Notes under the pieces: generated by a model
Database searches by the model: none
Told to the model about the DNA's origin: nothing
Seen by the model: only the letters and a program-made list of their open reading frames with translations
Program-made: the position numbers and the translations under genes
Shown here: in pieces, positions 753-59,313 of the stretch
Position numbering within the stretch: position 1 is the stretch's first letter
Layout of the letters: every line of letters begins with the position of its first letter
Source: Styela clava
Lineage: Eukaryota; Chordata; Ascidiacea; Stolidobranchia; Styelidae
Length of the DNA stretch: 64,000 nucleotides
Assembly (NCBI RefSeq): GCF_964204865.1
Contig: NC_135254.1
Coordinates: 10,793,001 to 10,857,000, forward strand
Reading direction: 5' to 3'

Positions 753-3700
753 TTAATTGATGTACGGATGTTCTTTTGTTGTGCTATTATTCATTTCTTC
801 GTATTGATGATCTCCGTCTTTTATTTTCTCATAATTATGCGGGATTTCATAATTTTCTTCTTTCTCTTCTCTTAACTCATAATTTCCGGAGTTCAGTTGT
901 GATGTTTGAATTTCATCAAAGTTTTCATAATAACTCGGGACGTCATTAACAACCCTATTCATCTCTGAAAGACGTTGTGGTTGAGTTGCGATTTTTTGAG
1001 AATTCCTTCAGTAAACAAAAAATAAGTTAGAATTAATTAATAAGTAGGATTTTAAATAAGAAACATTGGATTTGTTTTCGGAATTGCTTCTACCATAGAG
1101 GAGTTAGACAAAACAATCGACGAAAATGTTAGAGCCCAGTATTGCAGACATTGTCCCAGACATTGAGATTGCGCATACAGCTGTATAAAGAGACACACCT
1201 TACTGATTCAATTAAGAGTGAATACTCCAAATTTTCGGAAAATATACACATTTTGTTGTAGTATCGAACATTTCTCACCTCATTTTTTTGTTTCTACAAA
1301 TCAGCGAACCAATTCCAAATAGAATGATTGCAAGAATCAATGTGACTATGGATGAAATAATTGCAACCAATAAATTGTCGTGGCCTGCAATATATTTCAA
1401 CATATAGTAAGAAGAAGCATAAACGTTAAAAAAATTATCAGCATTGAACACAGGTTAAACATGAGAATCAGAAAGTCAGTGAGCATTTTATGTAACCACA
1501 AAATAGTAGTTTTAAAAACTCTGATTTTGTGCACTTAAGACTAATGTCTCTTATAATTTGTAAGCTATATAATCTTACCACAAGAAGTCGTTGTAGTAGT
1601 AGTGATTGCACTAGAGGGAAAGAAAATGTTTATCTTCGTAGATTCTGTGTTATTTGCATTGGCAGACAATGTGGAAGTATGTGTCATGTCATTGAGAGTT
1701 GTAAATTTATGATAAATATTTGTTGTTGTCATTTCAGCAGGCGCCGCGGTGGACGTTGTACTACAGGCAGTGTCTCTTGAACAATTGGTCGTCTGAAGAA
1801 AGTAATTGTGTTTAGCAATTTTTCGATACAATATATGTACGATAATATTTGTATATTCCAACATTTATTTAAATCCGAAGTTTAATGGTTGAACGTTCTT
1901 CAAAAAGTTAAACAAATTTAAAAATGCTCACAAAAATATTAATTCACACGCTTATGAAAAATAACGTCGGGCGCCCTGAATAAGAACTACTAGATATTCA
2001 CTTTTACGACTGCGGCTTATACGCTGTGAAATAGTAAAAACTATTCACACAACATAGAATGATGATCCTTTTTTTTTGAACCTTTTAGAAAATCAGAAAT
2101 TATTAACTTACTACAAATAATGGCATTTTTTTTATTATTTCTTACCTCAAAATTAGAACCAATGCAAATATTGGGCCCCGTTCTTCCCGAGTCAATGCAT
2201 GTTCGATTACGTACTTTCATCATTGAGCTGCAGTTACATGTACTCAACGATGACCAGGTTTCCCAGTATCTTCCTGCACAGTGTAAAGATTTAAAACAAA
2301 AGTTTTTTTGCCTGTTTTGATTAGAATGGCTGTATTTTTGTACGTAGTAAATAGGTTTAAACTTAAATAGGAAAAATTGCCAATTGCTTCTTATTCGCAA
2401 TAAACCCTTCGAAACTCTACAAATATCGATGACTTGCCCATACACGCCTTCTCAAGCTGTAGTGCAATACGTCCGCAAACATGGTCGGCGGAGAAAGACG
2501 CAAACGATAAGCCATTAAGTGAACCACTCCGTGTCGACGAGAAGTCCAACACTCTTGCACATTGTCACATCCCTCATGAGATTCGAACCAGGGGCGACTA
2601 TACCATTGGGCAAGGTAGGCTAAAGCCTTGAAGCCTCTAACCTCGTAGGCCTTAACAATCAATTTTAAGCTCATATTCACTGTAAATCCTTTTTGAATTG
2701 TGAAGCCTTCAGAGTTCCAGAATAATGTCACTTTAAAACTTTATATTTTTATTATTCACGGTAATAATTCCAAATATTTACCGATTGAAAGATTAAAAAA
2801 TTTGAAATATGGCCGAATAAATGATTTTGTAATAATACATCAACTTGAAATCCCTATTATGTTATATCCCATGGTTTAAATTTGTCCCAGATTCGAACCT
2901 GCATTCCAGCCGATCTAAGTATATTCTCCATTATTGTATTAATGCACTTGTTTTGTCGAATTTACAAGCGGTGACCGGGCTCCTGATGCAAATGTCTTTA
3001 GATTGTAGTAGGCCCGTGAGAGATGTTACATGATTTTTCTTTTTTTTTACTCAAAGCGTCTCCCTGATAACTCAGATAAACATTCCTGTTAAAATCTTAC
3101 GACTTTAGTGTTGGTACTAAGTTGGCGATATAGTTGCACAATGACAGTGAAACTTGAAGCAAACATTATAATAATCATTTATGCACTAATATTTAATCAA
3201 GAGTAGTTAGTTTTGAACGGAATATTTATGATAGAATTCATAGTCGCACTCACTAGGAATAAAAAAAAATCGTATCTGATTAAAATACGGGCGGTCGCTG
3301 AAATGCCAAGTGCCACTGAAATCATACCGTATTTTGTTGGCGCAAAGAGCAACAGCGAATACCTGTTGATGCGATACTTGAAGTTATTTAAATTAATGTT
3401 ATAAAGTTTATATAAACTAACGATCAGTAAACATTGGTATGATTTAAATGAACTAAATTAAAGTCAATGGCATTAAAATACATAAATAGTTATTTGTATA
3501 AAGAAAAAATGACATAATCTACAAATTAAGTAGACTTATTACATTAAAAGTTTGTTACCGATTAATCGTTGACATACAAATTCAGTTGGTGCATTCGCAG
3601 CGCAATCGACGTCATACCACGGTACATTTGCAAAATACGCGTTAAACCACCCCATAGCACCACAAGATTGGGTACTCTCACTAGAAGGTTCTCCTGAGTT

Positions 3701-4379
3701 CCAGTTAGTGTAGGTTAGTTCTGAATTGTCATTCCATATGAAGGTATTACTTGTGCCAACTTCCTTCAATCCAATATAAAATCCATAGGGTTGTCCTGTG
3801 CACAATAAAATGCCTTATCTTAGGGTAACGTTTTGTCGTGTGTAATATTTATCCAATATGAACATGGCTGATTGGGGCTGTTGAACATAATTGGAAACAT
3901 GTGCGAACACTTGAATACTGATGAATTAAGAATTCATAAACCAATGTATGGGGATTTCTCGCGCAAATCCCAAAACCCATGAGCAAAAGATTCTAATGAC
4001 CATGATGATAAATAACCTTAAGTAAATTCATTCAGGGATTTGAAATAAAAAGTGAAATGTCCTATTTACCTGAGGTAGCTGAGACTTGATTCTGAATAAA
4101 CGTTTGAATCTCGCTCGTTTTAATCATTGCCATCTCACCATCATTGTTTTTACAGAATGTTTCACCATCGGCATATGGTTTTATATCATCTTTTCCGGAT
4201 ACGTAATATTGGTAACTTCCAAATGCATTCCACTCACCTCTACCTGGTTCGCAAAAATAAAAAGTTTATGAATAAGCAAATAATTTGAAAGACATGATAT
4301 ATAGTATATACCAACCTGCGTTAACGACAGCAATCATCCAAGGAAATAATCCAATGTATATAAAAAGTTTCTCCTTCAT
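753..4379 (-). CDS. Receptor gene 1: CTLD-TSP1-stalk-TM, short Tyr tail
   Basis: Predicted type I membrane receptor of 391 residues. Exons in transcription order: 4379-4316, 4243-4070, 3795-3559, 2273-2146, 1792-1579, 1384-1279, 1005-753. All junctions are GT-AG and the frame is continuous. A hydrophobic signal peptide (about residues 1-21, starting MKEKLFIYIG) leads to one C-type lectin domain (22-158) with the canonical cysteines. It has an FYIGL version of WIGL, EPS where carbohydrate binders have EPN or QPD, and WYD in place of WND. One TSP1 follows (159 to about 211, with W..W and CIDSGRTGP), then a Thr/Ser-rich stalk, a TM helix (about 277-302) and an 84-90 residue acidic tail. Tail tyrosines include YEIP, YEKI and YEEM. 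It lacks the first TSP1 and second CTLD of gene 2. It is divergent from the vWA-FN3 gene at 6.7 kb. The family is novel to me and ligand and function are unknown. The weakest join is the acceptor of the last exon, CTGAAG. Confidence 0.82.
2440..2700 (-). repeat. tRNA-derived SINE in gene 1 intron
   Basis: On the minus strand, CTTGCCCAATGGTATAGTCG resembles an A box, and 35 or so bases later GGTTCGAATCTCATG is a good B box, followed by a non-tRNA tail to about 2440. It lies in the enlarged intron where gene 1 lacks the TSP1A and CTLD2 exons present in gene 2. Ends are approximate. Confidence 0.6.
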
Positions 4380-6745: not shown

Positions 6746-9700
6746 ATGAGAATTGAATCAATATTTTTGTTTATTCTTCTTCAATACCCGAGGCATCTGA
6801 ACGCAGCAGGTATTATTTTATTGTTATGACTTTTTCAGGAAATTTGCTAGAAACAAAGTCATTCATTCAAGGAAAAGGGAGCTTGATCACTGATCAATGT
6901 TAGTGCAACCACGAAACGCCATCAAGAAATTTTGAGACGTTAAGAGATTGAAGCATAGAATTGAGCGTTGGTTAATACCGATGGGCATGAGGCGTAAAAC
7001 TAACTGAATTTAACGGCTGAAAACTTTTAGAGGGACAATATTCAAAGATTCAAAAGAAAATTTTAAAAGCGGTAACAACGGTTGTCTGACAATGTGAATG
7101 AGTTTAGAAAATATAGGATTACATTACATCTCAAATATTAATTTATTTTGCCAGCATGTCGTGAAACGCCCATGGATCTTGTATTTGTGCTGGATGGATC
7201 GGGTTCCATCAGAGATGAGAATTGGGAGCTTATTAAGTCATGGGTCAAGTTGGTAGCAGAAAATTATGACTTAGGCGGATTAACACAGATTGGCATCGTT
7301 CAGTTCTCACACTGGTTTCCAAATGAAAGGTAAGCTTAGAAAGATATAATCATTCAACAAATCAACGTCAATAAAGTAAGATTTTCATTTTATTCATTTT
7401 GTAAGCCGAATTTATAATTTTTCTTTAAATTATTCAAAGCAACTGCTCAATCAATTAAAATTAATTTACCTATAAACAGCTGCCATGCCATGAATGATTT
7501 TTTTCAAGCGTCAGACCATGAATGTAGCTTCAAAAATTTTCTGACTTAAGTAATGAGCTGTGTTAAATATTGTAAAATTTTTGGACATGTTAGTGGACAT
7601 AACGATCGTTTCGTTATTATGTTATTGTTGTTCTTGTTGTTCTTTGTCATAGAAAAAAAAATCGTTTTTCTCTTTGATCACTGGACCAATCGCTTTGAAA
7701 TTTAAGTGCCTAATTTTTTGCTAGAAGGCTATTACTTTGATTTATTTTAAATATTCAAGTGAGCTGTATAAAATTCGTTATTTTGTGTGCTATGACGTCA
7801 TCAAAGTTTGCTACCATGTGGCGCTACGTTTCCATATATTGAGCATAGCTCTCTTGTTTTAATTACCCAAAAAGTGTTAATTTTAAACTTTGCCATTTTG
7901 TTGTTCCACTTCGCTTCGTGTTTTCACTGCTTTTATTTGAGTACAGTCAGCATACATTCTTCCAAAATCATTTTCGGCTTTTCTTTGGGTTTTCGAATCC
8001 ATTGTCATTCAAACACAAAATATGATAAAATGATTTTCATTTTTTTTAACAGCGCACAGCCATATTTAAAAACTGAAATACAGCTCGGAAAACTGAAGAC
8101 TGAAGCCCAATTCAAGGTAAAATATTCATCGAGCGTTGACTACCGCTGAGAGGGGTAGCGTCACGGTACGATCAGACGAGAGTGCTTGCTGATAATGTCT
8201 CAAGCATGGTAGAATAAAAAGTATTCTTCTATAAATAAAATACAATGGTGAAATTTAGAGTTAGTTATTGGGCGACATAGGTGTCAAAAAAAATTTGAAG
8301 AAAACAGCAATATCATTCGTAAAATCAAAAATACTAAACACCAAAATTCAGACGGACTTCGTGTGTACACGAAATGTAGTTTCCCAACAATGCTATTGAG
8401 CTAGTGTGGAGTCACGTTCTATGCAGAATAGAATTTAAAGGAAAATTTGTCGTATGATTTATCTTATTAAAAAGATTTGTTCACAAATTTGTGATATTTG
8501 AATATATCAAAATGCAATTAGCTTCAAAATAATAACTTAAACTGAGTATTCCTTAGGAAGCTGTTGACGAAATATTAATTCATGGATTCACAACTTACAC
8601 TGCACATGCTATCAACAAAACAGTAAACGATGATTTCATGAGATCTGATCGTTTTTATGATGCTTCAGTGAAGAAAGTCATTATTTTATTTACAGATGGA
8701 AGGTAATAACTTGTCTGAACAATGTCTGAATACACGCAAAATGCACCTTTGAAACGTATTGTTAACTGTTGTTAATGTTTTTGTCACTATTGTTAATGTT
8801 CACGGTTAATGTAATGTAAGTTAGCAGATTTCTTTCGATATATCCGAATATTTAGCCCCTCTGTTATTCAACTTTGGTTTCTGCGCGATATATATGGTAT
8901 TTCAAAGATAATTACTCAGAATTATTATTTCGTTTTATTATTCACTAAATTATTCTAATCAAAGTGATGCCCGCATAAGAATTCTTAGTTATTCTTGTAC
9001 AGAAATTTTTAATTTATTTGAAGATCTTACGACAGAAATGATTTGCCTTTGTCAGCAAAATATGCTCGATCAAATGGGATTACTATATTTGCAGTTGGTG
9101 CTGGAGGTTATGTAATGGAGGAATTACAGGTAACTGAAAAGTTGTGACAAATTGAAATAACTGAGAAAAAATAACTAAGTTAGTTATCAAAATAAAACTC
9201 TTTTTGACTGAGATTGATAAATAGCAATGTATTATGAATGTTTAAATATTGTTTCTTTTTGGGGATTTGTGAGTGAGATTCGCTTATGTATATTCTATGC
9301 TTCTCAGTTCCGGGTTTTTCACAAAATATTTTATTTAAATAATATTTTTGTGTTAAATAATTAGGGATGTTGCATGGAGAAATAATGTATCGCGGGAACT
9401 CAAAGCTGATATACGACCGGCACCGAGTACGTCTTCGCATTTGCAAAATGCTCGGTGACGTTCAATATAATCGCTGAAGAGCCCCAGTGGTGATGACGTT
9501 TGTGGCTGCGAGCCATCGCACAATTGTGTTGGATTTGTTCGAAATTACTGGATGGTGTGCGATATAGTAACTGTGGAAACACGCATACATAAAAGCCATA
9601 TTCGCATAATAAATTTCATTATAACAAAATGTCTAAAACTCTGGCGATTAATTTGTATTTCTTGATTAGATAAGTTAGGACACCATGATTCAGTAGTATT

Positions 9701-11124
9701 TAAAAAAGTTGAATGGCCATTATACGTTGTTATGTTTCATCAATAAAGTCAACTAATATGCATTATGCACATGCACGTGGTTTGCATTTAAATCAAGCCG
9801 GTAGACACCCAGGATCTCCACTGATACATGAGGCTCGTTCTCTAGCAAAACGTTAAGCCATGCATGCAAAATTGCTGATCAATATCTGCAGTGTATTGCG
9901 GAACTGTCAGTTTATTTGGACGCTGCGCGGCTCTTCAGCATATCAGCTTGTGCGATTTTCTGTGGCTAATTGTCAAAACATGTTCACTTGAATTCCTAAC
10001 TTCCAAAGTTTCCCCAGTTGTGGAATATCGAAATTAGTTTACGAGAAAATCTACTGGAGCAACATCCAACATTTTGTATTCACGTTTAACGACATAGTTG
10101 AATTGGGATCATATGAGGAAGTATCAAATGAAACGGTAACAAAAATATTTTTAGTAACGAACAAGACCTTTTATTTACAGATTATTGCTAATGGCCAGGT
10201 CAATAACAATGAACGAGTGATTACAGTTTCAAATTTTACTAGGCTGAATTCTACGGTTGATATTTTAAAGCAAGGTATATGCGCTATCCAAGGTAATGTT
10301 GATATTAATAGTCAGTTTTTATTGAGGCAGCTACGATGTGTTAGTAGCATATAATTTCGAACTACGTTTTCAAAATATTCTTTGCGCCCGAATCTGATAT
10401 TGAGCCAAGACACTATAATAATTAAATGTTCCACATCTCGACGTCATATGCCGAAATGGTATTCGATTTTTTTTTTGTTAAAATCAGTGGAATATGAAAT
10501 GAGATTATTTTTGCAGGCTACCACAGCAAAATTAACGATTGAAATTTGATTTCTCGTTTTCGAAAAGCATTTCGTTCAATGCGCAGAGCTAATAATAAAT
10601 AACTCATTTCCTACAGATTTTATGTCATATAATATAGAAATAACAAGGTATAACAGCTGAAATGTACAAATTAAAGAGGGAATTATATAAGATTCAAAAA
10701 AAAATATTTATATTTGTTTATAGTTCCCTTCATAGTGTCTCGCTACACTTGCACAACTTCATCGTTAGAGGTTCAATGGAAAACAACTACATTTAAGTCG
10801 ATCTTCTCCTACAGACTTCAAATTCAGGTTATATTGATAAATATAATGAAAATCATTACATTGGTCTAAACACTTTTACTATGCGCTAGAACATGCAATT
10901 TTATGCTTAATATCACAAATATGTATTTAACTTATAAGGATCTCAAGACCAAAGAAATCAAGGAGACAAGCGTTCAATTACTCATGAAAAAAGAACCAAC
11001 AATAAAAATTCACGAAGAAAAGACATCTTCGAAATTTGATTGTATCACTACGACAAATTTGTATATTTCAAGCAACTACGAAATCGTTGTTGAGGAAATA
11101 TCGGCAAAACAAATAATCAAATAA
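6746..11124 (+). CDS. Secreted vWA-FN3 protein, copy 1 (C-terminus frameshifted)
   Basis: Eight exons: 6746-6809, 7155-7329, 8053-8116, 8557-8702, 9036-9129, 10181-10292, 10724-10827, 10939-11124, giving 314 residues. The signal peptide (starts MRIESIFLF) is followed by a von Willebrand A domain (about 23-216). Its metal-ion site looks complete: DGSGS at 35-39, the loop GFTTYTAHAI, and FTDGR. Cysteines bracket the domain (CRETP and GICAIQ). A fibronectin III-like module follows (about 219 on, with SSLEVQW and SNYEIVV). No TM helix is seen, so the product is probably secreted. Compared with copy 2 (36.9 kb) one A is missing near 11108, which ends the protein at IIK after ISAKQ and removes the last strand of FN3. 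The last intron's acceptor is AAG rather than TAG. Matrix and integrin-like vWA domains with this motif usually bind protein ligands through a divalent cation; the partner here is unknown. Confidence 0.8.
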
Positions 11125-13769: not shown

Positions 13770-16700
13770 TCAAGCATCATATTCATTTTCAGGCATTGAA
13801 TTGATGTACGGATGTTCTTTTGTTGTACGATCATTCATTTCTTCGTACTGATGATCTCCGTCTTTTATTTCTTCATAATTATGTGGGATTTCATAATTAC
13901 CTTCTTTTTCTTCTCTTAACTCATTATTTCCGGAGTTCAATTGTGATGTTTGAATTTTATCATATTGTACATAAGAAACCGGGACGTCATTAACAATCCC
14001 ATTCATCTCTGAAAGACGTTGTGGTTGAGTTGCGATTTTTTTAGAAATTCCCCTGTAAACAACAATAAACTTGAAATAATTCACACGTAGGCTTTTGAAT
14101 AAGAAACAATGGATTTTTTTTTTTATTGAATTGCTTCTAATAACATATATTAGCTAAACGTCATCGTGATCGGACGAAAATGTTAGAGCCCAGTATTTAA
14201 GACATTGTTCCAGACATTGAGATTGTTACTGCTGTATAAAAGATTTTATTTAACTTATTCAATTGAGAGGAAATACTCAAAATCGTTTAAAACTTACACA
14301 TTTTATTGTTGGATCGAACAATTCTCACCTCATTACTCTGCATCTACGAATCAGCAAAACAATTCCAAATAAAATGACTGCAAGAATCAATGTGAAAATG
14401 GATGAGATAATTGCAACCAATAGAATGTTGTGTTCTGCAATATATTTCCATATATAATAAGAATCATAAACCTCAATAAATTTATCAGGTGCGACCACAA
14501 ACAACTACCTAACAGTACAGAAAACGGGTTAAATATGAGTTGTAAAAGACAAAAAGTCAGTGAGCATATTGAACCACAAAATAGTAGTTTAGAAAATCAA
14601 ATTATAAGCACTTGAGACTAATGTCTCTTATAATTTGTAAGCTATATAATCTTACCACTAGAAGTCGTTGTGGTAGTATTGATTGCACCAGTGGGAATGA
14701 GAATGTTTATCTCAGTAGTTTTTGTGTAATTTGCATTGGCAGACAATGCGGAAGTATGTGTCATGTCAGTAGGAGTTGTAAATTCATGATATTTATTTGT
14801 TGTTGTCATTTCAACGGTTGAAGGGGTGGGCGTTGTTTCACAGGTAGTGTATCTTGAACAATTGGTCGTCTGAAGAAAGTAATTGTGATTTAGCAATATT
14901 TCGATTCAATATATGTACGATAATTTTTTATTTATTTCAGCGGTTATTTAAATCTGTATAATGTTCTTCAAAAAGTTTAAAAATATAAAAAAGCTCACAA
15001 AAATATTGATTCACATGCTAATGAAAAATATCGAAAGTGAATAATTCAGATGAATCAGAAACCTTTTTGGTAATTCGTCAATAGCCAGGTCCTGCGACCT
15101 GAATCAGAAATATTGAAGATTCACTTTTGAAAGTGCAGCTTATACATTAATATAGTAAAAACTAATAAAAAAAACATAGAATGATAATCATTTTTCTTTT
15201 AAGCACTTTAGAAGATCAAAAATTGTTAAATTACTACAAAAAGTGGCTTTCCCTATTTTTTACCTCAAAATTAGAACCAATGCAATTATTGGGCCCCATC
15301 CTGCTCGAGTCAATGCATGTCCGATTTCTTACTTTCATCATAGAGCTGCAGTTACATATACTCCACGATGACCAGGTTTCCCAGTATTTTCCTACACAGT
15401 GTAAACATAATCATACGTACGATTCCTCTTTTTATTGATTTTATTCGTGGTCCATATTCCAACTATATCATATTCTAAACTTTATGCTCTTTTAATTTGT
15501 TGAATCTTACAACTAAATATAGATTCAGAGCCAGGTTTTTTTTGTCATAATTGAAACTAAGTTAAGTTGGAGTTCGTGTAAATTTGTATTCCTTTTCGCC
15601 GTTTGAATTCGTCTCAACTCGCTTGTCACCAGACATTTTACTCACCGATATGGCGTTGACACACCAATCCTTTCAACCCTGTTGCTCCAGTGTCACAGTC
15701 CATCGTATGCCATAGAAGATTTGCGTCATAAGTTTTTTGTTCACCTATCGATACACAAGTCTGTGTTCCACTATCAGTATCATGATTGTTTGGTTCTCCT
15801 TCATCCCAACGAATGAATGAAAGGTTTGTTCCGTCGTTCCATTGAAACATCGACTTTGATTTGTCATAAACAAGTCCAATGTAAAATGTGTATGGTTCTC
15901 CTGTAATAAGACATATCATATCGTCACGCTAATAATCGAATTGCGTAAGTCATTTTTGGCGATTTCGAGTTTTTTTTATAAATTAGGTATTTATGTAATG
16001 CTGCGCACCTGTCTGTTAAATCAGATTTTATTTTAAGAATTCCGAAACCCATAAAAATGGAGATTTAGTATTACAGGCACATTTGTGCAATTGTTTCGTC
16101 ATAATGAATTATCATTGTTACCGCAGGACTATTGTGACGTCACAAAGGCAAAATAACCTCGGCCAAGTATTTTCGAGTTTTTGCATCTCGGATTCTAGCT
16201 TAGCGCGTATTAATTTGAATTTTTACTACAGTATAGGAAGACGTGCACTTGTGATATTCACTGTCCGAGTCCAATTCACCTTGGTTGGCTTTTATATTGG
16301 GTGCATTGCTGTTTTATTCTTTATATTTATTCTTAGTCTAATTTCGGTGGATGTGCAGAACATGTTATATCGATGAAATATATATTTTTAAACATAAAAA
16401 ATAATGTAATTGAAACTGATTAGCTATTTTGGGGATTAGACATTGTAGATACTGAGAATTACATTCGTTTTTGGAATGTTTTGTTTTCAGGACTTGTGCA
16501 TATAGTAAAGATGCAAAATTGCGTATGTCCCCAAGTCATACACACATTTCTGCCTAAGTCACAGTGCGCCATTATGACGTCACAACCTAAATCCGGCTAC
16601 GATCAAAACATTGAACCATGGCAAATCATTGACTCTCAATGGCACAACAATATCATTAGGAAGTTTTTTACGTTTTTCTCAAAACTGCTAAAAATGACTT

Positions 16701-24599: not shown

Positions 24600-24805
24600 A
24601 GAGGTGTGTGTACCAATATGGGAGTAGCTAATTTTGTTCGCCTACTTTACATCAAATTATGTGAAGGTACTGAAACCTTTTGGCAGAGGGCTTGTTCACT
24701 TGGCTAACACAGACAGTCCCAATCTCGTAATAGAACTAAAATAGGGGGAATCGGAATAAAACTATGGCCTAACTCTAACCCGGTACAGACACTACGGAAG
24801 TAGCC
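24600..24805 (+). repeat. Dispersed ~205-bp repeat, copy 1
   Basis: Shares the order TACCAATATGGGAGTA, AACTAATTTTGTTCG-like, CTTGGCTAACACAGACAG, CTCGTAATAGAACTAAA, ACACTACGGAAGTA with the copies at 62195-62402 and 62855-63053. No terminal inverted repeats or coding capacity seen. Confidence 0.75.
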
Positions 24806-24971
24806 AACCAGATGTATAACATATTAGATAATCAACAGTTACTTCCAGAAGCAACATGGCTCGAAGTTAGAAAAGCATTAGTAGGATTATTCATCAGTCT
24901 GAACCTGTTTTTCTGCTACTAATCCAATAAATATGTGATTTTGATTATAGCTTAATTTAACTTTCCCATCC

Positions 24972-44517: not shown

Positions 44518-47500
44518 ATGAATGAGAAACTTTTGATATACATTGGATTATTTGCTTGGATGATTGCTGTCGTTAGCGCAGGTTGGTATATATTATATAT
44601 CATCACATCTTCTAATTTTGTGCTTGTTGATAAACTCTTTATTTTTGCGACCAGGTAGAGGTGAGTGGAATGCATTTGGAAGTTATCAATACTACGTATC
44701 TGGAAATGAAGATATAAAACCATATGCTGATGGTGAAACATTCTGTAAAAATAATGATGGGAAGATGGCATTGATTAAAACGAGCGAGATTCAAACGTTT
44801 ATTCAAAATCAAGTAACAGCTACCTCAGGTAAATAGGACATTTTACGTTTTACCCCAAATCCCCGAATGAATTTTCTCAAGGTTATTTATCATCATGGTC
44901 ATAAGAAATTTTGTTCATGTGTTTTGGGATTTGCGCAAGAATCATTCATACGTTTATTTAGAAATACTAATATTACTAATTTGTCAGTCTTCATGTATTT
45001 GCACATGCTTTCAATTATGTCCAACAGCTATAATCAGCCATGTATACATGCAACAAATATTACACACGACAAAACTTTTTATTACTACAAGGCATTTTAT
45101 TGTCTACAGGAACACCCTATGGATTTTATATTGGATTAAAGGAAGTTGGCACAAGCAATACCTTCATATGGAATGACAATTCAGAACTAACTTACATCAA
45201 CTGGAAGAAGGGTCAACCTTCTAGTGAGAAACCTGAACCGTGTGTTTCTATGGGGTGGTTTCACACGTATTATGCAGATCTACTGTGGTATGACGTTGAA
45301 TGCGTTGCGAATGCACCAATTGGGTTTGTCTGCCAGCGATTAATTGGTAAAATTTTGTTCTCTATTTTGTTTATATTGTCTAGACTTCTGTTTTATGTAA
45401 CAAATCGCTGTCTTAACTTTGTAAAACACAAAAATGATAATCTTTTTGCAAATAACTATTTATATATTTTGATGCCATTGACGTCAATTTAATCTATTTT
45501 TATCATGCCAAGGTTTACTGCCCCATAGTTTATAGCATTAATTTTAAGTTATTAAAGCATCTCATTAACAGGTATTTGCTGGTGGTGATTGCACCATCAA
45601 AATACTGTATGATTTCATGGACACTATACATTTCTGCGACCGCCCGAGTTTGAGCAAATGCCCCTAAGAAAATTGAGAATTGAGTTATCTGGGTCCAATG
45701 TTTTAAATTCAACTGGATGAAATATGTTTATTCGCGAAAGCAGTTGCACAATATCATTTATTTGCGGCCAGATGAATTTTCAGTTTTATATGAAACAAAA
45801 CTGCTAAAAACCTGTCAGCGGTTCAATTTCAATTTCATTAAAAATGTTTCTTACAAAACTAACTACTTTTAGCTATTAGTGCAGAAAATATTCTGAGAAA
45901 GTTTTTAAGTTTTCAGTAATGTCATCTTATCACTAATTATACCTTGTACAGCTATGCTATTGTTTCCATCGCTGCTACTGTATTAACTTGAGTTAAATTT
46001 ACTGATATAAAATTCTCAGAATACTCAATTGTACAAAATATATTTTCTCTGTTTTTTTCTGCAGGCTGGAATTGGGGATCATGGGAGTCTTGGGGAAGTT
46101 GTGAATGCCCGGGAATGAGACAGCGTAACCGAACTTGTGTTGACAGCGGAAGAATTGGTCCATACTCATGTAATGATACGTCAACACAATCGGAAGTAAA
46201 CTTGTTTTACATATATAACTCATCATGATTGTCATTCCGTTCAAAATGCTTGCTCATTACCTCGTTGTATTAATAAATATCACATTAAAGTTTAGGATTT
46301 TATAAAGTTCTAACATGTCGATTAGTGTGTCGTTTCAAAACTAACTCAAAAATAGAAATACATTTTTTTATGCTTACCGTTGAGACACGCTTACGTTAAA
46401 TAGCTATTGTTTGGTTGATTTTTGTACTCAACTCAACGACATTGCCACACAGGTAAATTTATTTGAGTCAGTTTAGTCGTATTTAGCTATTAATTGAAAC
46501 AGATTGATTAATGTAATAAAATAAGTCCATATGACAGTTCTAATTTTAAATGTAACTTGCAAATCCAGTCTGCGCCGCATCAATTTGGATTTCATTGTTA
46601 CATTTTTCTATTTTTTTGGATCATGTAATAAATTTCAGAGTTACAGTTAATTTGATTAAAACACGTACATGTACGGTTGAACAAAATGAACGTTGTTTTT
46701 AGATATGCGCGCCATCTGTTTCCTGCAATGCAACTATGCCTTTGATTCCACTAGGTGAGAATGAGAACCTATTCTAGAATTAGGTTGTTATGTTTTCATT
46801 TCCCAGCAAACTGACCACATAGTACAGTTCTTGCGAAAATGAGATAGTGATATGAACAATGGGCTCTGTTATTCTCTTTCACATGAGTCATGAACCAGTT
46901 TCTATCAATTATCTTTCTCTAGTGAAACTGTATAATTTTTTTTTTATTGTAACTTTGGCACGAATATATATATTTTTTTTATTGGCTGAAAAGCAATATA
47001 GACTGAGTATATACAGATACACGGTACTCTGTACTGGTAACGGAACCGTAAGGGTACCTGTACCAAGCGTAACCGGTAAAGTAGGTTACCGTTGTCGTTT
47101 ACTGATAATGTTGAAGGACAGCGTCAACGACAGTAGATTCAAAGCTCTAAAAAAAAAATTTAAATTACATATTTGAACCTTTGCTGTTGCTGCTCAATAA
47201 CCAGCTTTGGTCCCCCGCGACTACTCTTTCCCAGTAAATCTGTGTAAATAATATTTTCTCGTACTTTGTGTTCGATTGTTGTTAATTTACTGGTTGGAAA
47301 AAATAAACTTGACTTGACTCTAATCGAAAGGTGCTAAAACGACTTACAATCGAAACTTTTAAATGCGTCAATATATCAACGTTTTTCTTTATTATTTACT
47401 TTGGTACTTAAATTAAAGCAAGTGCTTGCGATAATTGATGCTATCTCGCTCAATCGTGCATTTTCATTGCGAATTTATCGAGATACTGATATTGTATAAT

Positions 47501-50500
47501 TATTTGATATTTCATTTGTGAAACAGATCGAGGAAACTGGTTTCCTAACGGAAGTTATGAATATTACGTTTCACCGGGTGGTAGTTCAGGATCTTATGAA
47601 TATTCGAAAACATTTTGCAAAAATAAAGGAAGCGAATTAGCATTGATAAAGAATAAAATAACCCAAGGATTTATTAAAACACTCATTTCTAATGGATCAG
47701 GTACGTGCATTATACGTGCAGTATTAGTTTTTAGCACTGTATGGCAAATTTATTACACCCATGGGTGACGTGAGATGATATTTGAAACTGAGATGCGTAA
47801 TCTGCAATGCCAAAACAATTAATTCGTACGCTTTAACCGCTCTGTCATCGATAAAACGCTTATCCACGCATGTCGCAGCAGTATAAAATAATACGGTATG
47901 TTTTATTACAGGAGAACCATACACGTTCTATATTGGACTTGTTTATGACAAATCAAAGTCGATGTTTCAATGGAACGATGGAACAAACTTGTCATTCACT
48001 CTTTGGGATGAAGGAGAACCAAACAATCATGATTCTGATAGTAGCACACAAATTTGCGTATCGATTGGTAAACAAAAAACTTATGACACAAATCTCCTGT
48101 GGCATACGATAGACTGTATCACAGGAGCAACAGGACAAAAAGGATTGGTGTGTCAAAGAATTATTGGTAATTGCAATTAGTTAATGTCGAAAGTCTCGAA
48201 AGTCACGTTACTGCCCCTCTGACCACTAAAATCGTTTATTCCATTGAACAAACTTGGTAAGTTTCAATTGAATGGAGATTGCTTTATGGGGTATAAAAAA
48301 CATAAAGCTGACTAAAATCAAGTGATGTGGTAAAATGTTATGGCAAACCTTGCGTGGAAATTTAGGCCCTTTTGTGAACCGCTCCCATCGTATTTCTAAA
48401 TTACCATCTAGCTGATCGCATTAATAAAAACGAACTGTTTTGATCTAGGTAAATACTGGCAAACCTGGTCTTCTTGGAGTGAATGTAACTGCTCAACCAT
48501 AATCAAAATGAGAAAACGCACATGCATTGATTCTTCTCGAACAGGGCCCGATGCGTGCGTTGGCAGCCACAATGAGGTATGAAGTAGCTAAATATTCCAT
48601 ATAGGTACATTTTATTTTTTTTTTATCGCCGTCGTGGTTATTCATTGATATCTTCAGTTTTGTACTGCAGTGTAGCTTGAACTCGATGTCAAATTTATTC
48701 ACAGCTATATTAAATGATATTTTTTTATTCTTAAATAACCACGATATGAAGTGATGGCATTCTTCATTCGATGTAGTTTTTTAGCATGTTTAAGCTGATC
48801 TTGAATCTCGAAATAATGAAGCGGATATAATATAACTTATTTCCACGACATGGTCAAATCGTTTTGGCGGTAGCGGAGTGATACTATTGTATATCATAAC
48901 ATGTGCACATAAAATGAAATGTTGATGCTTTCCGGGTATGTTATAATAACTTTTGCTTTTAAAAACCATGTTTGGAAATTGTAATAAAACCGATCGATTT
49001 CAATTTTCTTTCAGTTTGTGTCAATATTTTTAACAGACTGCAAATTGTACAAAAGACCCAACTTGTTATACGACTACTGTTGCGGAAACAACATTACCAT
49101 TAACTACAACTGCTGGTAAGTTAACCACCGACGTAATGACTATCATGACTACTGGTTCTACAGATGAAAATAATGTTGTGACAAATGCAACCTCTAACTT
49201 GCAAGGCACTTCTTCTTTACTCGCAGAAACCGAACAAGACCAAATGACGACAGTGACCTTCCAATTCACATTTGAAACTAAAATTAACAGCACTGAAGAA
49301 ATGGGCATAAATTTAACCCAGTCAACTATTCATCTCCCCGAACCAATGACAACCACAGGGATGGACAGCCACGTTGTTAATACAGAAAGCACGACGATTA
49401 CAGGGCCGTCCCCCATGTCCCTCGTACAGACAAATGAGAGTAAAACGACGATGGAAAATAAAATGACAACTTCTGATAGCGGTGGAATAACAAGTAGCTT
49501 ATTGAACACCACTATCCCTACAAGTACAATAATACAATCAACGAGCGAAACTAGCCAAGGAAGTAATTTCGAAGTGACATCGCCAATTTTGTCTATGGCA
49601 ACAACGGTAATGGAAACAACGACAGGAAGAATTACTCAATCTATTTCCACTCCCACAAAAACTGATTTCACGTCTACTGCCGTCACTACGAGTCCAGAAT
49701 CTAGCAGCAATCAACACGCAACTTCAATTAGTGTTACAACCACAACGACGAAGGAACATAAAAGCACGGCCACAATAAAACAAACAAAGACGCAAAAGAG
49801 TGCTACTTTTGAATCGACAACTGAAGACGAAACGTCGAGTAAATTTCACAAAGATTATATATTTCAAAGCAGAGAATATTTCAAAATTATATTTTTTTTA
49901 CGTATTATTTACATATTAACGTATTTGGAGTAAAAATGTAAACGTGTCGCCACAATATAAATGTAATGTCACAAAACGCAAACATGGAAGTCATAATTCA
50001 TTTGAGGGCAAAATCAATTTATACACTCCGATAGCAGAATTAGAAATACTTCATTCATATCTTTCTTTTAACTCAAGTGACTTGCTACAGATGAGAATCG
50101 CGGAAAAAAAATGCGATTTATAATTTTACGGGCTTGATCTTATACTATTAGCTGCAAATAATCAACAAAATACATTTGATCAGAGTTAATATTGGCAAAA
50201 TCTGCAAAGAAACCAAACTCAAATAATACCAACAAACGGAACGTGGGATAATTATAACGGCATTAGCAATAGTTTAGCATAACAAATCATAAATTTATAG
50301 GTTAGTTTCGCCTTTTGTACAATTGAGTCATTTACTAAGATACACGCGAGAACGCGGCCAACATTCGATCATTGAAAAAGCCAATCAGAATGTTTAAATG
50401 TTAACATACAATCATGATGAAGCGGTCTAATAATTTTCGGACGATTAATTTCCAAATAGGAGCTTAGGAAAAATTTTAAATCAAATTTCAGCTCGCGAAA

Positions 50501-52260
50501 TTGTGTAAGCTTGTCTAAATGAACATTATCTATTAATTAAATTTCTGATTTTGTATATTGTACTGATATCAATTCCTATATTATCTCACACAGAAATTCC
50601 TGACATTTCGACGATTGGTATTCTTCGTCCATCTACACCCGCTTCACAAACATCAATCATTGGACCAGTCGTGGGAACTATCGGAGGGATTCTTCTTTTA
50701 GCGCTTATCGTTGTTTTTATACTTTCAAAGCAACTCAAAAAAAGGTAGTATATCCAACATTATCTGTTATGAATAGTGAATGAATACCAAATATGAAGGT
50801 ACACTCATTTCACAGAGAATGCATATAATCTAAAGTTTTGCTTTCAGAAGAGGTAGTGGAACCATAAACAAGGGTGGGCGTGGCAATTACAATGAGGGGT
50901 TAGAAATGGAAGAACAACTTAATCCGAGAGATATAATGTCAGAGCGTAAGTTAATGTAACTTCATTTTAAGTATTACGTCAACGCATTGTATCTGGGTTG
51001 ATGAATTACCGTACTTTACTGTCCACCACATGCTGCTAAATGTATGACAATTAAGAGGAAATACTAATTCCGACATGCACCGTATGATTATCTAAACTAT
51101 AGGCCTTATAGGAAAAACAGTGATTTCATGGAAATATATTCATTCTGAGAATGTATAGCAAATAAGAATAGTATATATAGAAGCGTAATACAAGATTGAG
51201 TTTTACACTAAAATCACAACTTATTGCAACGAGCCCAACCGATATTAAATAAATCTTTCTACGTAGAAATTTCAGAATTGTTGTTACTTATGAACATAAT
51301 TATGAGTTATTTATGTTAAAAAACGATACACCCAGTTATGGTGATTATATTATAACTAACTCAAGTTGGTAATAAGGTATGAGTCCGTATTCAAATCTGT
51401 AGTCGGTTAATTTGAATGGCTCGGACCTAATTTTCATCTCCTCCAGATGAAAACGTTTCAAGTGATTCAAAATTGCTGCTACATATTGGTATATAATATC
51501 ACTTACATGTTTTACTGCTACAGATCCCGAAGATGTGGAATCAGGTCGAGACAATTCTGAAAAAACGGAAACTCTTCGTTATCAGACGTTTTCGAACCCT
51601 GCTGGAAATTCAGACAATAATTCTCTCTTACCCAAAGATCAAGTTGACTCGTCAAACGGGCAAGATTCACCCTACGCCGTTGTCGATAACCATCAGAATC
51701 AGATAAACGATGTGACCACAGAAGGCAACGACAATGCAATGTATACTGCTGTGAACAAGACAAAATCGAAAAAGTTAACCGAATCCTCAAATGTTTCGGA
51801 TGCGGTGGATGTAACAGAACCCCAATATGCTGTTGTTGATAAGCAAAAAAAAGGCGAAATAATTAATGTTTCTGCTAACCCTGACGAGAACTCCCCTGTA
51901 GCTTATGCAACGGTTCAAAAAACCAATGTTGAGGATTCTAAAAAAATGTCAAAATCAGAAAACCCCTCTGATGAAAACCAAGAGTCTGGTCCGACTTACG
52001 CTACCGTGGAGAAATCGAAATCAAAAGGCCCTGTGAAACAGAAAACACCTTCAGATGGAGACGACAAACACGACAATAAAGTGACATACGCTGTTGTACA
52101 GAAACCCAAAAAAGATGATTCTTCAAACGTCATTGAAGTAACTTATGCAACGGTCAATAAACCCAAAACAGATCAGAGTTCCGATGTCAAGGGACGTGCT
52201 GAAGGGGCTGACATTGAACTAAATGACGACCCATATGCAATGATTGACAAGGGTAAATAA
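44518..52260 (+). CDS. Receptor gene 4: CTLD-TSP1-CTLD-TSP1-mucin-TM, ITIM-like tail
   Basis: Complete 12-exon gene: 44518-44581, 44655-44828, 45110-45346, 46065-46195, 46703-46754, 47527-47700, 47912-48166, 48449-48576, 49037-49838 (or ending 49115), 50594-50744, 50848-50945, 51524-52260. The long form has 1000 residues, the short form 759; both donors are phase 1. The order is signal peptide (1-21), CTLD1 (22-158), TSP1A, CTLD2 (220-362), TSP1B (WQTWSSWSECNCS), Thr/Ser-rich mucin-like stalk (about 406-672), TM helix (about 692-717, GTIGGILLLALIVVFIL) and a tail of about 280 residues. The tail has eight regularly spaced Y-A/T-x-V/I motifs; YAVV after DSP, YATV after VA, and VTYAVV and VTYATV fit the ITIM pattern (S/I/V/L)xYxx(I/V/L). 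In vertebrate receptors such motifs recruit SH2 phosphatases. The mucin donor at 49838 is my choice; transcripts would settle it. Confidence 0.87.
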
Positions 52261-54560: not shown

Positions 54561-57500
54561 ATGCGATTCTCCTTCTGCTCATGGATCTTATGTGTCACGG
54601 AATTTACAAGTAAGAGTTTTGCAATATTGTAAATAAAAATTTAAAAGTTTGCGGCATATAGATTTAGACAGCATCAGAAATTTACCTTATCAAGATACCA
54701 AAAAATTTGTAAATATTTATTTCGAGTCTTATTATATCACCAGATATGTGGATTACCTGTAAATGGTTTGTAAGAAGCGAAGGTGTGATAAACCAATGGG
54801 AATTAAAATGTAGCAGGGCTTTCATGTTTTATATTCCGATTGAATCAAGTATGTATGATAAATGTTAAAACTTAGTTGTTGTTATTTTTTAAATAGCTGT
54901 TCTGGGCTCATCTGGTTTCGGGTTGGACGAATCGACAACGTCACCAGTAAACAATGATAACATCGCCTCAACTGTTTATGATAAGGAGTTTGATAAAACC
55001 ATATCCCAGACTACGGTAGCCAAAATATTCTCAACTGCATCGACATCTAGTGCATCAACCCGAACAACAAAAGCAACCCAAAGCACGAGTCTATATGAAA
55101 CTACTTCTGCCCAAGGTACGTAATATATTTGGACAATTTTCTTCAAGGCATATTTTCTTCGCTGGAGAAAGCCAGAAAGTTGACACTCAATATTATCACA
55201 TCGATGATGGAAATGATTACAATGTTAAAATAAAACGTTATTCAGAAATAAATATTTACATCCCCAAAATTGCTTTTTCCAAAGGTCTTAGAGTTTACGA
55301 AATTATTAAACAAAGTTGCAAGATTAAAAAAAAGTCTATTTAAAATATTTGTCTCAAATTTTAGCCGATTTATTTTTAATTTTTTTCATACATTTTAAAA
55401 CTGTAAACAACCGCAGTGTACCAATGGTTTTGTTTGAGTGATAAATTATATAAAATTTTCACAAAATACCAATAGGATGGGTTGTAGGATAATTGATACT
55501 GGTGCAAAAACTCGTCATAGGAACTATCAATTTCGGTTTTGTACAAAATACAAAAACAAGATGACATTTTAGCTTTAATGATATTGTGCTGGTTTGAGTT
55601 TAAAACATTTCTTTAATTAGAAAACTAGTCTTTTTGACATGCCCTAAACTGCATCCAAAATTAGATTATTTTGACAAAATGCATATGGCCAGATGGAGTC
55701 ACCTACGCCACATTTTCAGTGATTAACACAGCCTATGTCATATCATTCAATAAATATAATTATGTGTATGTTCTTCATTATACCCTTTTTCTGTTTGTTT
55801 TTACATCCGAATAGATCGTCGTGGGAGTTGGCAGAGGCTAAATAATATCGAATATTACGTATCTAAAGCTAGAGAGATAAAGAATTTCGACCAAAGTAAA
55901 GAGTTTTGCAGGCAACAGGGTGGAACGCTTGCTCTTGTTAAAACAAGCGAAACACAGAGTTTCATTGCAAGTCTTGTGATCCGAGACTCAGGTATTTTTA
56001 TAAGCTATGACATCGACTGAGTATACTTTTCTTGATGCTTTCCTTGGCGTTTAAAATTTTTCTCCTTCTGACATCATATTTCAATGCTAATTTTAATTTT
56101 ATAAATTTGAATTAAATTTTTAACCAATATTGAAAATTGGTAGTAATGTTTTCGACACAACATTTTGTGAAAATATATATATATATTATAGATTTGTTTA
56201 ATTTTGAAGTTACTAAATTATTGGATGTTATTTTATCTTGAACTTACTTTAAACGAGCAAAGCTGCGTCTAAGAAGTCATTTATTTTTCAAAATTTCACC
56301 TAAAAATGTGTAATATTTATTTTCAATTATCCAATTGTTTGTTTAGGCATAAATTTCTCAATTTCATTACTGTATAACAGTACAATTAATTTTTTTTAAG
56401 ATGCAACAAAGAATTTATTTAAACCTGTAAAATTCAAAATAAAAAATTAAAAACAGCAATTCATTTCACAGGTACGCCATATGGGTTTTTCATTGGTTTG
56501 AAAAGAGTGAACAATAACAGCTTTGCGTGGATTGATAACGAGGCTGAATCGTATGGGGCATGGCATTCTGGAGAACCTAATAATACGGATGAAAATGAAG
56601 ATTGCGTTATTATGGGTTGGATTCACGAATTTATGAAAAATCTCCGATGGAGAGACTACAAATGTGGCGTGGAAAAATTCGCACCAACCGGATTCATATG
56701 CCAAAGGATATTAGGTAAAATAACATAAATTTTGAATTAAATTATAATAATCTTTTCAAATACAAATACATTGGAGAAATTTTTAGACTGGGAAATATTA
56801 AAAAGTAAAACAAGTACCAAATAAACATTGATAAAATCTTTCACAGGGATGTGAACGCTTATCAAATATGACATAAATTCACATCGCAAAAGATAAATTG
56901 TAGAAAAATAAATTAAGGTTAAAATATGCAATTATGACATTGTAATTGTAAACAAAAATTAAAATTTGTCCCAAGTCCAAAATCAAAAATTGTCTTTCGC
57001 CTTTGAAATTTAAAAAGAATACATCGTCATGGTGAAATCTTTTTTCAACCTCTTGTGCTTTTCTTCAGTGAAGCTTGAATTTTTATATTAAAATTTGAAG
57101 TTGGTCAAAGTACCTAATTGATTTTTTTTCGTTTTCTACTAATCACGTATTTTTCATCAAAACTTCTATTGGGCATTTGTTTGACCATCTGACCACTGCT
57201 AGTTTGCATGTTGTCAGTGATAATTGTAGGTACGATCACAACCTTTTTTCGAATACCAGGCAAATGGGGAACAATACGATTGGCCATGAGCAACGACAGT
57301 TTTGTACTTAAACTTTTCTCAAATATAACAATATAATATTTATTTTCTATTTCAGAAACGACTGTCATTCCTACTACGGAGTCGTTCACAAGCGCTTTGA
57401 AAACTACAGCTTCAAAATATATTTCGACGGAAGGGGAACTCACAACAAAATCGTCAACTTCAGAAATCTTCGAACCCACGTCCGGGACTCAACAAATTTC

Positions 57501-59313
57501 AACAAAAGAATCGACTGATCTTATTTTATGGACAGAAAGACCGAATTCTCAAACTACAACAATTGGTCTTGTGGTCGGCGGGATATCGCTGTTGCTTCTA
57601 GTTGTGATAACCGTACTTGGATATTGCTATCGAAAAAGGTACATTGAATCGGGTGTTGGGCTTGTTAACGTTATCGTAGATTCAATATACATTTTGAATT
57701 ATGTTTTATAGGCAATCTAAGAATGAATTACTGCAGAGAATACAAAAAACAAATCTTGGTAAGTACCGTAATATATGGTATATAATAGCTTTGAGAAGCA
57801 TATAAAAATCTTTTTGGCAATATCCATTTTCTCCAGAAAACAAGTACAAGAATACAACATGTAATGTCACAATATTATCGAATTCAGCAATAATCGCGCA
57901 TCTACCGTTGTTAAAAAATATTTTTACTCTGTGGTTCGCATTTTAGCGTACACTTCAAAGTTGTAATTTAACACTTTTGCAGATGTGGATGACTATGTGG
58001 AGTTACATCAAATTAATATTGAAGAACCCCGTTCTACAAAACCAGTACAGAAAGATCCTAGTTCGCCAACGCCTCTAGAATATATAAAAGATCGTGACAC
58101 GTCTACAAAAATATCCGTAAGAGATTCAACATATGTGTTGATGACGTCTCCTTCAATAGAAATCAAATCTCGCTCTGAAAGCAATCGCTCATTCGTCGAT
58201 ATCATGCTTCCAACCACAAATGTAACTCCAACAGACAATACCATTACCAGTCCTGAAGCAGAAGCATACGAGTTTATGTCTGGTGGATTTGAAGAAGATG
58301 AAAAAGAAAAAAATCTGATTTTGGGCAAAACGCAATTGACAAGCGTAGGCCAGGAAACAACAGAAGGATGCTTATACGAAATCATGACAAAGGGAACAAC
58401 GAACGAATCAAGTAATGTTAATAAACATTCGAACACAAGTCAAAGTTCAAAAATACATTTGAGAATGGATAATTCAAATAAGGATAAGCAAATGTCATCG
58501 CATATTTTGAAGGAAAAAGGCGACATCAAAAATATTGAAACACGTGAAAAATCAGCTCAAGGGGACAAATCGAATTTACAAGAAGATTTGCAGGGTAAAA
58601 CTATACAGAAAGTGGAAAAAATCATTCAGTTACCATTACCTTCAATACCGAAGTGTGGAGATGAAAACAAGACCACTGATGAGTACGAATTGATGCCGTA
58701 TGGCGAGATAACTTTTCAAAATGAACCTCCTAGTAAAGCTGATGTGCTGCCGCCTGAAGTTATCATGACAAAACAAAATTCAATGAGAATAAAGACCAAC
58801 GATAGTAGCAAAATAGTGCAGGGCAGTACTCTGCCCATCTTACCCGAAAACACAGACATAGAAATCGATAATGACATTACGCCATATGGTGCAATTGAAT
58901 ACGAGGAAAAATCTACGGAGACCGAAGAATCGCTGAGCAATAAAGAAAATCTCAGCAACGATTCAAATAAGAATAAATCAGTCATACAGAATATGCCTTT
59001 ACCTGCAATACCAATATCAGACGATAGCAATTCGCCTGTAGAAAGTCGAAACGAAATTTACGCTGAAATACAAAGTGAATCAACAATCAAAGTAGTCTCG
59101 ACCGCACTCGGTCCATCTCTAGATAAAGAGGAGATTCTTGAAGATGACTACACCAAAGTGGAAACACCGGTCAAACTGAGTTTTGATCCGGGCGATCAGG
59201 ATGTATATGAGGAGATTGATAAGACCACGGCAGTCAGCAGACAGAATAGGAAACGAAGGACAATTATTGGTCCTAAAGGTGACGAATATGCTATAGTGAC
59301 AAAAGAAGTCTAA
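54561..59313 (+). CDS. Receptor gene 5: single CTLD, stalk, TM, long multi-tyrosine tail
   Basis: Seven exons, 782 residues: 54561-54609, 54897-55115, 55815-55991, 56472-56714, 57356-57638, 57712-57758, 57983-59313. The short signal peptide (MRFSFCSWILCVTEFT) is followed by a Ser/Thr-rich segment (17-89), one CTLD (90-229), a second Ser/Thr stalk (230 to about 297), a TM helix (about 298-320, IGLVVGGISLLLLVVI) and a tail of about 460 residues. The CTLD has the EPN motif (GEPNNTDENEDC) and WRD at the WND position. The tail has four YxxM motifs (YVLM, YEFM, YEIM, YELM), the usual PI3-kinase p85 SH2 target, plus DYVEL, IYAEI, DVYEEI and EYAIV. Two LPxIP segments (LPLPSIP, MPLPAIP) are SH3-ligand-like. 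It lies head-to-tail behind gene 4. A possible poly(A) signal (AATAAA) is near 59693. Confidence 0.85.

Follow-up and report, generated by a model that had tools for sequence, protein, structure and literature searches.

What kind of receptor system is encoded in a 64,000-nucleotide stretch of Styela clava DNA (hereafter the window), in which genes for membrane proteins with C-type lectin-like domains (CTLDs), TSP1 modules and tyrosine-containing tails lie among genes for secreted vWA-FN3 proteins? A search of the species' own 376.6-Mb genome placed the window at C5:10,793,001-10,857,000. The reading favored here, to which we give a probability of about 0.62, is that the window is one end of a tandem cluster of paired type I C-type-lectin-like receptors, in which one ectodomain family is carried on two main classes of signalling tail, a loop of the first CTLD (CTLD1) diversifies, and the vWA-FN3 protein is probably a partner of the receptors.

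An array of CTLD-TSP1 receptors on C5

The window, which is about 34% GC and contains direct and inverted duplications of 72-91% identity (self-comparison, matches of at least 150 bases), forms one end of an array of about 340 kb on C5. At least 24 close CTLD1 copies were found in the genome (second-exon match at 64% identity or more), all of them at C5 10.51-10.84 Mb; this is a lower bound, because 150 of 218 candidates were scored. The array also contains 24 receptor tails, 16 of the type found in gene g3 (YEIP-YEEI/YEKI-YEEM) and 8 of the type found in gene g5, which carries immunoreceptor tyrosine-based inhibitory motifs (ITIMs). All 16 g3-type tails lie within the array, as do all 8 places in the genome with a g5-type tail, of which five have an open frame. 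Two adjacent modules in C5:10779900-10806700, starting at 10,780 and 10,794 kb, were 99.75% identical over 8,071 bases, which reflects either tandem duplication in the very recent past or duplication in the assembly.

Three receptor genes in the window have intact models. Gene g1 (753-4379, minus strand) encodes a signal peptide, CTLD1, one TSP1 module, a stalk, a transmembrane (TM) segment and a tail, in 391 amino acids and seven exons (4316-4379, 4070-4243, 3559-3795, 2146-2273, 1579-1792, 1279-1384 and 753-1005); its internal splice sites are all GT/AG, the phases are consistent and the frame is open. The splice-consistent model of g3 (13770-19494, minus strand; 602 amino acids, 11 exons) has the order signal peptide, CTLD1, TSP1, CTLD2, TSP1, stalk, TM segment and tail. 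The same order was found in the inverted gene g5 (44518-52260, plus strand; 1000 amino acids, 12 exons), which has a long stalk containing a 267-codon Ser/Thr-rich exon and a tail of about 245 amino acids. A first-pass annotation of the window had described four CTLD/TSP1 membrane proteins of CTLD-TSP1-CTLD-TSP1 order and one single-CTLD relative, clustered in 60 kb. All five loci are present, but g4 is a pseudogene, g1 has a single CTLD and a single TSP1 module, and the window covers just one end of a much longer array.

The sequence fetched comprised the window, 200 kb and a further 30 kb of the array, with 10.660-10.763 Mb (about 103 kb) covered by five short loci only. By exon order in these stretches, receptors have one, two, three or four CTLDs; the three-CTLD receptor is at C5:10,645,075-10,655,129 and the four-CTLD receptor at C5:10,619,669-10,635,076. 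Expected splice dinucleotides were present at 258 of 275 sites in the fetched receptor genes. Nine of the 17 misses were in stop-bearing genes (10605558, 10763816 and g4), one was in a broken tail at 10,657 kb, three were at 10.48 Mb in matches that are diverged or due to chance, one was in the diverged g6 TM exon, and three were tail acceptors at which the fixed offset used to locate them did not suit the copy (10619669, 10780343 and 10793729); the last of these is g1, for which the hand-built model has a good tail acceptor. Sixteen receptor genes were fetched with both CTLD1 and tail, and 12 of these were stop-free in every exon searched, a count that includes four genes whose tail ends nine codons early and that does not cover stalk exons, which were checked in g1, g3 and g5 only. 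The four broken genes were 10510686, 10605558, 10763816 and g4.

Pfam Lectin_C matched g1 at 2.4e-14 (54.4 bits) and g3 at 5.8e-27 (95 bits), with a cut-off of 22.6, and the receptors therefore belong to the C-type lectin-like domain superfamily. The closest solved CTLD structures by sequence are those of mannose-receptor-family proteins. Pfam did not report TSP_1 in full-length g1 or g3. When domains were searched in isolation at a threshold of E 10, TSP_1 matched 9 of 12, with a best value of 1.5e-6, and the first TSP1 member scored 23.8 bits where the cut-off is 21.6. Six cysteines were invariant in the TSP1 alignment, and a profile made from it retrieved thrombospondin-1 structures at E 0.0012; the modules are TSP1 domains. 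The receptors have type I topology, with an N-terminal signal exon and an ectodomain of one to four CTLDs preceding the TM segment. A single ectodomain kit would thus be in use, with CTLDs and intervening TSP1 modules carried on a stalk rich in Ser/Thr, and each ectodomain would be followed by either of two TM/tail cassettes that are unrelated to each other.

The motifs EPN and WND together mark mannose-type, Ca2+-dependent C-type lectins. EPN was found in none of 20 CTLD1 copies, in which W[YFS][DG] stands in the WND place. It was kept in eight of nine fetched CTLD2 copies, all nine of which have WHT.DC in the WND place. Neither CTLD1 nor CTLD2 therefore has the motif pair of a mannose-type lectin. 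As CTLD1 lacks EPN, mannose-type sugar binding is less likely for it than a protein ligand or binding of a non-classical kind.

Elsewhere in the genome, 149 Lectin_C exon matches were obtained among 150 of 697 candidates scored; these occur on many contigs, and additional groups were seen on C13, C16, C8, C1 and C2. One distant locus outside the array, at C18:15691501-15697500, combines one EPN-bearing CTLD with a TSP1 exon, followed downstream by tyrosine-containing frames (for example EPEYATI). Because this one locus has the plain CTLD-TSP1-tail layout, that layout may be the ancestral form. On C9, at 16179895-16180164, there is a GH6 (Glyco_hydro_6) exon that scores above the Pfam cut-off and had no match in 14 control genomes. 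It would be consistent with the GH6 domain found in the cellulose synthase of tunicates. A COX1 search, aimed at the mitochondrial code, gave no match, and neither did a search for GFP, which had no positive control.

Two tail cassettes on one ectodomain family

The g5-type tail exon (51524-52260, plus strand) encodes nine tyrosines, eight of them as Y..[ILV], a number that none of 2000 shuffled sequences reached (mean 1.32). Four are canonical ITIMs, defined as [IVLS]xYxx[LIV], and one of 2000 shuffles had as many (mean 0.30). The shuffle test was applied to three of the eight ITIM-type tails; the open tail at 10546848 has three ITIMs (12 of 2000 shuffles), and the tail of the pseudogene g4 has one (683 of 2000). 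The above-chance ITIM content of the g5 and 10546848 tails identifies these proteins as putative inhibitory receptors of the ITIM-bearing kind.

The tails of the other main class carry a different set of motifs: YELR, YEIP, YEKI, YEEM and YIN in g1, and YDKI, YEIP, YEEI, YEEM and YIN in g3. The combination of YEEI and YEEM in g3 and one other tail was not reached in 2000 shuffles, and YEEM, the only one of the two in g1, was reached in 37 of 2000. Four tyrosines (YEIP, YE[EK]I, Y..M and PYI) were invariant in all ten distinct tails among the 12 fetched. In the 22-codon motif core of the YEEM tail, pN was 0.050 and pS 0.202, compared with 0.096 and 0.131 outside the core, so that constraint is stronger in the core. 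A canonical immunoreceptor tyrosine-based activation motif (ITAM) was considered for this class and rejected, since no strict match was present in the three tails tested. A third, rarer tail type is that of g6, in which there are four YxxM motifs (0 of 2000 shuffles) and seven Y..[ILV] (14 of 2000).

Preferences of SH2 domains for tail motifs are taken here from vertebrate signalling. On that basis the ITIM-repeat cassette, once phosphorylated, would recruit SH2 phosphatases and be inhibitory, and the YEIP-YEEI/YEKI-YEEM-YIN cassette would recruit Src-family, PI3K and Grb2-type SH2 proteins and be activating or co-stimulatory. The same ectodomain family would then stand on opposite tails in one cluster, as in paired receptors, with "opposite" resting on this reading of the motifs.

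The relation between ectodomains and tails was examined in a tree of CTLD1 that included 21 of the 24 copies (14 with YEEM tails and 7 with ITIM tails, the class of copies in the 10.660-10.763 Mb gap being assigned by position). The copy 10609151, which has in-frame stops, was included in this tree and excluded from the selection tests below. Tail classes required three changes on the tree, and a single change was sufficient in none of 200 bootstrap trees. The ITIM receptor 10550941 was sister to the YEEM receptor 10526119 with support of 92/88. Exchange of tail cassettes between receptors is therefore likely, as judged from the tree.

Diversification of the CTLD1 loop

Over 19 distinct, stop-free CTLD1 sequences the overall ratio of nonsynonymous to synonymous substitution (dN/dS) was 0.53. 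The ratio was not evenly distributed: a scan gave 1.48 for codons 86-113 versus 0.36, and the best 28-codon window (95-122) was reached in 2 of 2000 codon permutations. For the long loop, bounded after the scan as codons 92-119 (EPN to WND position), dN/dS was 1.65 versus 0.37 elsewhere over all pairs. In nine pairs, which use every sequence once yet share branches in their tree paths, there were 64.2 nonsynonymous and 9.8 synonymous differences in the loop versus 110.7 and 88.3 elsewhere (Fisher p 1.1e-6); pN/pS was 1.9 versus 0.35, and the excess over neutral had a one-sided p of 0.029.

Other exons gave dN/dS values of 0.25 and 0.16 (vWA, including two first exons with a stop), 0.31 and 0.39 (FN3), 0.35 and 0.41 (TSP1), 0.23 (CTLD2 exon B, three sequences) and 0.51 (YEEM tail). 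Because dN/dS is high in the loop and low in the vWA exons, the CTLD1 loop is diversifying while the secreted vWA-FN3 protein is kept nearly constant. The loop, diversified by selection, is probably the ligand-binding surface.

A secreted vWA-FN3 gene beside the receptors

Two vWA-FN3 genes are present in the window, both on the plus strand. Gene 1 (6746-11124) has a signal-peptide exon (6746-6809), vWA exons at 7155-7329, 8053-8116, 8557-8702 and 9036-9129 (the boundary at 9036 being read by eye), a later exon starting at 10181, and FN3 exons at about 10730-10836 and at 10939-11124; its C-terminus is shifted relative to most copies. Gene 2 (37414-41674) has vWA exons at 37414-37587 and 38533-38676 and FN3 exons at 41214-41303 and 41414-41674, with a conserved signal-peptide exon upstream of 37414. 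Pfam VWA matched at 2.3e-26, and fn3 gave only 6e-4, under the Pfam cut-off. Among the 11 fetched copies, the signal-peptide exon kept its ATG and GT without a stop in all 11, and FN3 exons were present in all 11. No TM stretch was seen in the last exon of the vWA gene. The metal ion-dependent adhesion site (MIDAS) of vWA domains consists of the DxSxS, T and D residues. Of the 11 first exons fetched, 10 have DxSxS and all have GFTT and FTDG, so that the product has a vWA domain with a MIDAS. The first-pass annotation was thus right to call two secreted, MIDAS-bearing vWA-FN3 genes, but its description of them as divergent is not supported, as their exon dN/dS of 0.16-0.39 ranks with the more constrained values in the array.

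Fourteen close matches to the first vWA exon were found, all on the plus strand and all in the array, at 73-85% identity except for one, which had 60% in an alignment extending beyond the exon. Looser relatives occur elsewhere, and some of them, at C5 9.60 and 10.22 Mb, reach 71-72% across exon 3. Each of the 14 vWA genes is divergent to a minus-strand receptor and starts 2.9-3.5 kb beyond the first CTLD1 exon of that receptor; among the 11 copies fetched, 2.8-3.1 kb separate the receptor signal exon from the first vWA exon. Fourteen of the 24 receptors therefore have a vWA neighbor, by position six of the eight ITIM-type receptors and eight of the other 16. It is plausible from this arrangement that the vWA-FN3 product is an invariant receptor partner, which might act as a bridge, opsonin or shared ligand.

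Weighing the evidence

The main conclusion agrees with an earlier proposal that a rapidly evolving cluster of recognition receptors, with tyrosine tails of SH2 type, is present here: CTLD1 has 24 close copies, two modules are 99.75% alike, diversification is focused on a loop, and the two main tail classes are of inhibitory or activating type by motif. The paired organization of the tails and the regular head-to-head position of the vWA gene go beyond that proposal, whose further suggestions, a role in immunity or allorecognition and vWA-FN3 as ligand or co-receptor, are treated here as candidate roles. Several results weigh against it. In addition to the two limits on the loop test given above, a codon bootstrap of pN minus pS for codons 86-113 was at or below zero in 10.3% of replicates, and dN/dS was also high in the TM exons (0.70 and 0.69) and in CTLD2 exon A (0.70). 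Single motifs of the YEEM tails other than YEE[IM] were within the shuffle range, and the lack of a strict ITAM in the three YEEM tails tested counts here too. Activating paired receptors have a charged TM residue for an ITAM adaptor, and no charge was found within the hydrophobic TM stretch in any of the 12 fetched TM_g3 sequences. The ITIM class is decaying, with three of eight tails broken and g4 down to one ITIM. Shuffled tail labels needed a mean of 6.0 changes, and a number as low as 3 was reached in just 2 and 5 of 500 shuffles; because so few were this low, the tail classes are clustered on the CTLD1 tree, and an approximately unbiased (AU) test did not reject a single ITIM clade (p 0.094). 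The 24 CTLD1 copies and the 24 tails do not correspond one to one, since the tails at 10,728 and 10,730 kb share their nearest CTLD1 and the CTLD1 copy 10755582 is without a tail of its own. Finally, the adjacency of the vWA genes may result only from block duplication of the module.

This last explanation, in which the vWA-FN3 gene is a passenger that is functionally unlinked to the receptors, has only slightly less than an even chance of being correct. Blocks appear to have been copied whole, because the two members of one module pair share 99.75% identity across 8.07 kb; 10 of the 24 receptors are without a vWA neighbor, and a stop is carried by 2 of the 11 fetched first vWA exons. Against it stand the divergent orientation kept in 14 of 14 copies, the low dN/dS, and the first vWA exons that are stop-free in 9 of 11. 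As for what the receptors recognize, sensing of pathogens or symbionts, with CTLDs binding microbial surfaces, vWA-FN3 acting as an opsonin and the tails setting thresholds for phagocytosis, is a serious candidate with roughly one chance in three. Loop diversification and growth in copy number fit such a role, as do the mannose-receptor-family CTLDs that are the nearest solved relatives, and sugar binding is possible in the eight of nine CTLD2 copies with EPN, although the absence of EPN from all 20 CTLD1 copies and the replacement of WND by WHT.DC in all nine CTLD2 copies argue against this role.

Two further roles are improbable. One is an array of cell adhesion or matrix receptors for development or tissue adhesion, with generic tyrosine tails: vWA-FN3 and TSP1 are common matrix modules and are under purifying selection here, but structural adhesion genes would not usually form a tandem birth-and-death array with pseudogenes, a loop that has diversified and two classes of tail attached to a shared ectodomain. 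The other, just as unlikely, is allorecognition, that is, a locus of self/non-self receptors for tissue compatibility whose ligand would be vWA-FN3 or another linked product. The tunicate-type GH6 exon on C9 was counted in its favor, but the vWA-FN3 protein is constrained, not variable, unlike an allodeterminant. The system nearest in organization is an allorecognition candidate, Botryllus FF/FcoR, which is clustered, amplified as adjacent pairs and equipped with ITIM and other tyrosine motifs (PMC12065747); against this, FcoR ectodomains are built of Ig and sushi domains instead of CTLD and TSP1.

Comparison with other receptor clusters

The mammalian natural killer (NK) complex (Ly49, Nkrp1) likewise clusters activating and inhibitory CTLD receptors with closely related ectodomains. 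Those receptors are type II with one CTLD, which is not the case for the receptors of the array, where type I proteins have a signal peptide, one to four CTLDs and TSP1 modules; moreover, activating members of the NK complex use a charged TM segment and ITAM adaptors, and none were seen here. Paired receptors of the leukocyte receptor complex (LRC), SIRP and Siglec groups share with the array a common ectodomain, opposite tails and several ITIMs per tail, but they have an Ig fold and short-tailed activating members, whereas tyrosine tails are found here in both classes. Proteins of the mannose receptor family have CysR and FNII domains preceding their CTLDs. The array resembles this family in having several CTLDs in a type I protein, as well as in CTLD sequence, and differs in having TSP1 between CTLDs and many tyrosine motifs in the tail; neither domain was matched by Pfam in the g1 and g3 proteins, so these models lack the arrangement that defines the family.

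Nor was any Ig or sushi match found by Pfam in g1 or g3, and these two models therefore do not have the IgV, sushi and Ig ectodomain of Botryllus FF/FcoR. The Alr proteins of Hydractinia, too, have Ig-like ectodomains, unlike those of the array. According to one report (PMC12065747), ITIM and ITAM-type motifs occur in both the Botryllus and the Hydractinia allorecognition candidates; Alr resembles the array in being a cluster of candidate allorecognition genes with ITIM/ITAM-like motifs, and Botryllus has gene pairs with ITIM and hemITAM motifs, gene-content variation and Ig-type and sushi ectodomains. Botryllus schlosseri FF/FcoR and the Styela array are alike as birth-and-death arrays of type I receptors with ITIM and other tyrosine motifs, amplified as adjacent pairs. 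They differ in that FcoR is IgV-sushi-Ig and its partner is a fester-family receptor and not a secreted vWA-FN3 protein. For Botryllus, differences in gene content between individuals and an association with fusion have been reported (PMC12065747); the array here is known from one assembly. The array would work like the known paired-receptor clusters, but by topology or ectodomain it falls outside each of the named families compared here. It is best described as a cluster of paired receptors whose ectodomain is of a new type and with which a gene for a secreted protein has been co-amplified. A word search of titles and the opening parts of abstracts in a paper library found no description of the CTLD-TSP1-CTLD-TSP1-TM architecture.

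Other features of the window

The pseudogene g4 (approximately 24975-34578, minus strand) derives from an ITIM-type (g5-type) receptor. Its CTLD2 exon A is broken and there is a stop in the stalk frame, while the tail exon is open with one canonical ITIM. CTLD2 exon B was not found at the locus. In its expected place, 28311-30512 has no similarity to the paralog in self-comparison of the window, and is perhaps an insertion. The 28-32 kb portion of the window is 39% GC versus 31.5-36.5% in the other 4-kb bins.

Gene g6 (55820-59313, plus strand) encodes a single CTLD, a TM segment and a tail of about 443 amino acids, and no convincing signal-peptide exon was found for it. Its tail is the one full-length copy of this type, with decayed copies elsewhere in the array; the C-terminal part of a g6-type tail survives as a relict at 20989-21186 (minus strand). 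Between g5 and g6, at 54893-55330 (plus strand), a stalk-like open frame is followed by a tyrosine-containing frame (QYYHIDDGNDYNV), and an inverted stretch similar to it lies at about 21.2-21.8 kb. Adjoining the array, at 60635-61735 (minus strand), is a gene for a Kelch-repeat protein with a tyrosine-rich, signalling-tail-like N-terminus (YDYA twice, YEETDEPIYETIDEVY).

Implications

Paired inhibitory and activating receptor clusters are best known in vertebrates. A CTLD-TSP1 array with paired-tail logic would show one signalling solution being used once more, independently, on a new ectodomain. A bolder and rather doubtful possibility is that the array is a CTLD-based recognition supergene, arisen independently of the vertebrate NK complex and LRC as well as of the FF/FcoR system of Botryllus. 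In such a supergene, a receptor bearing an inhibitory or activating tail and a variable string of CTLD-TSP1 beads would be inherited head-to-head with its own soluble vWA-FN3 protein; if so, receptor repertoire and soluble partner would be copied and lost together. The series of one to four CTLDs, the two tail cassettes and the co-amplified soluble gene would make this array a good natural system in which to study the origin of inhibitory and activating partners.

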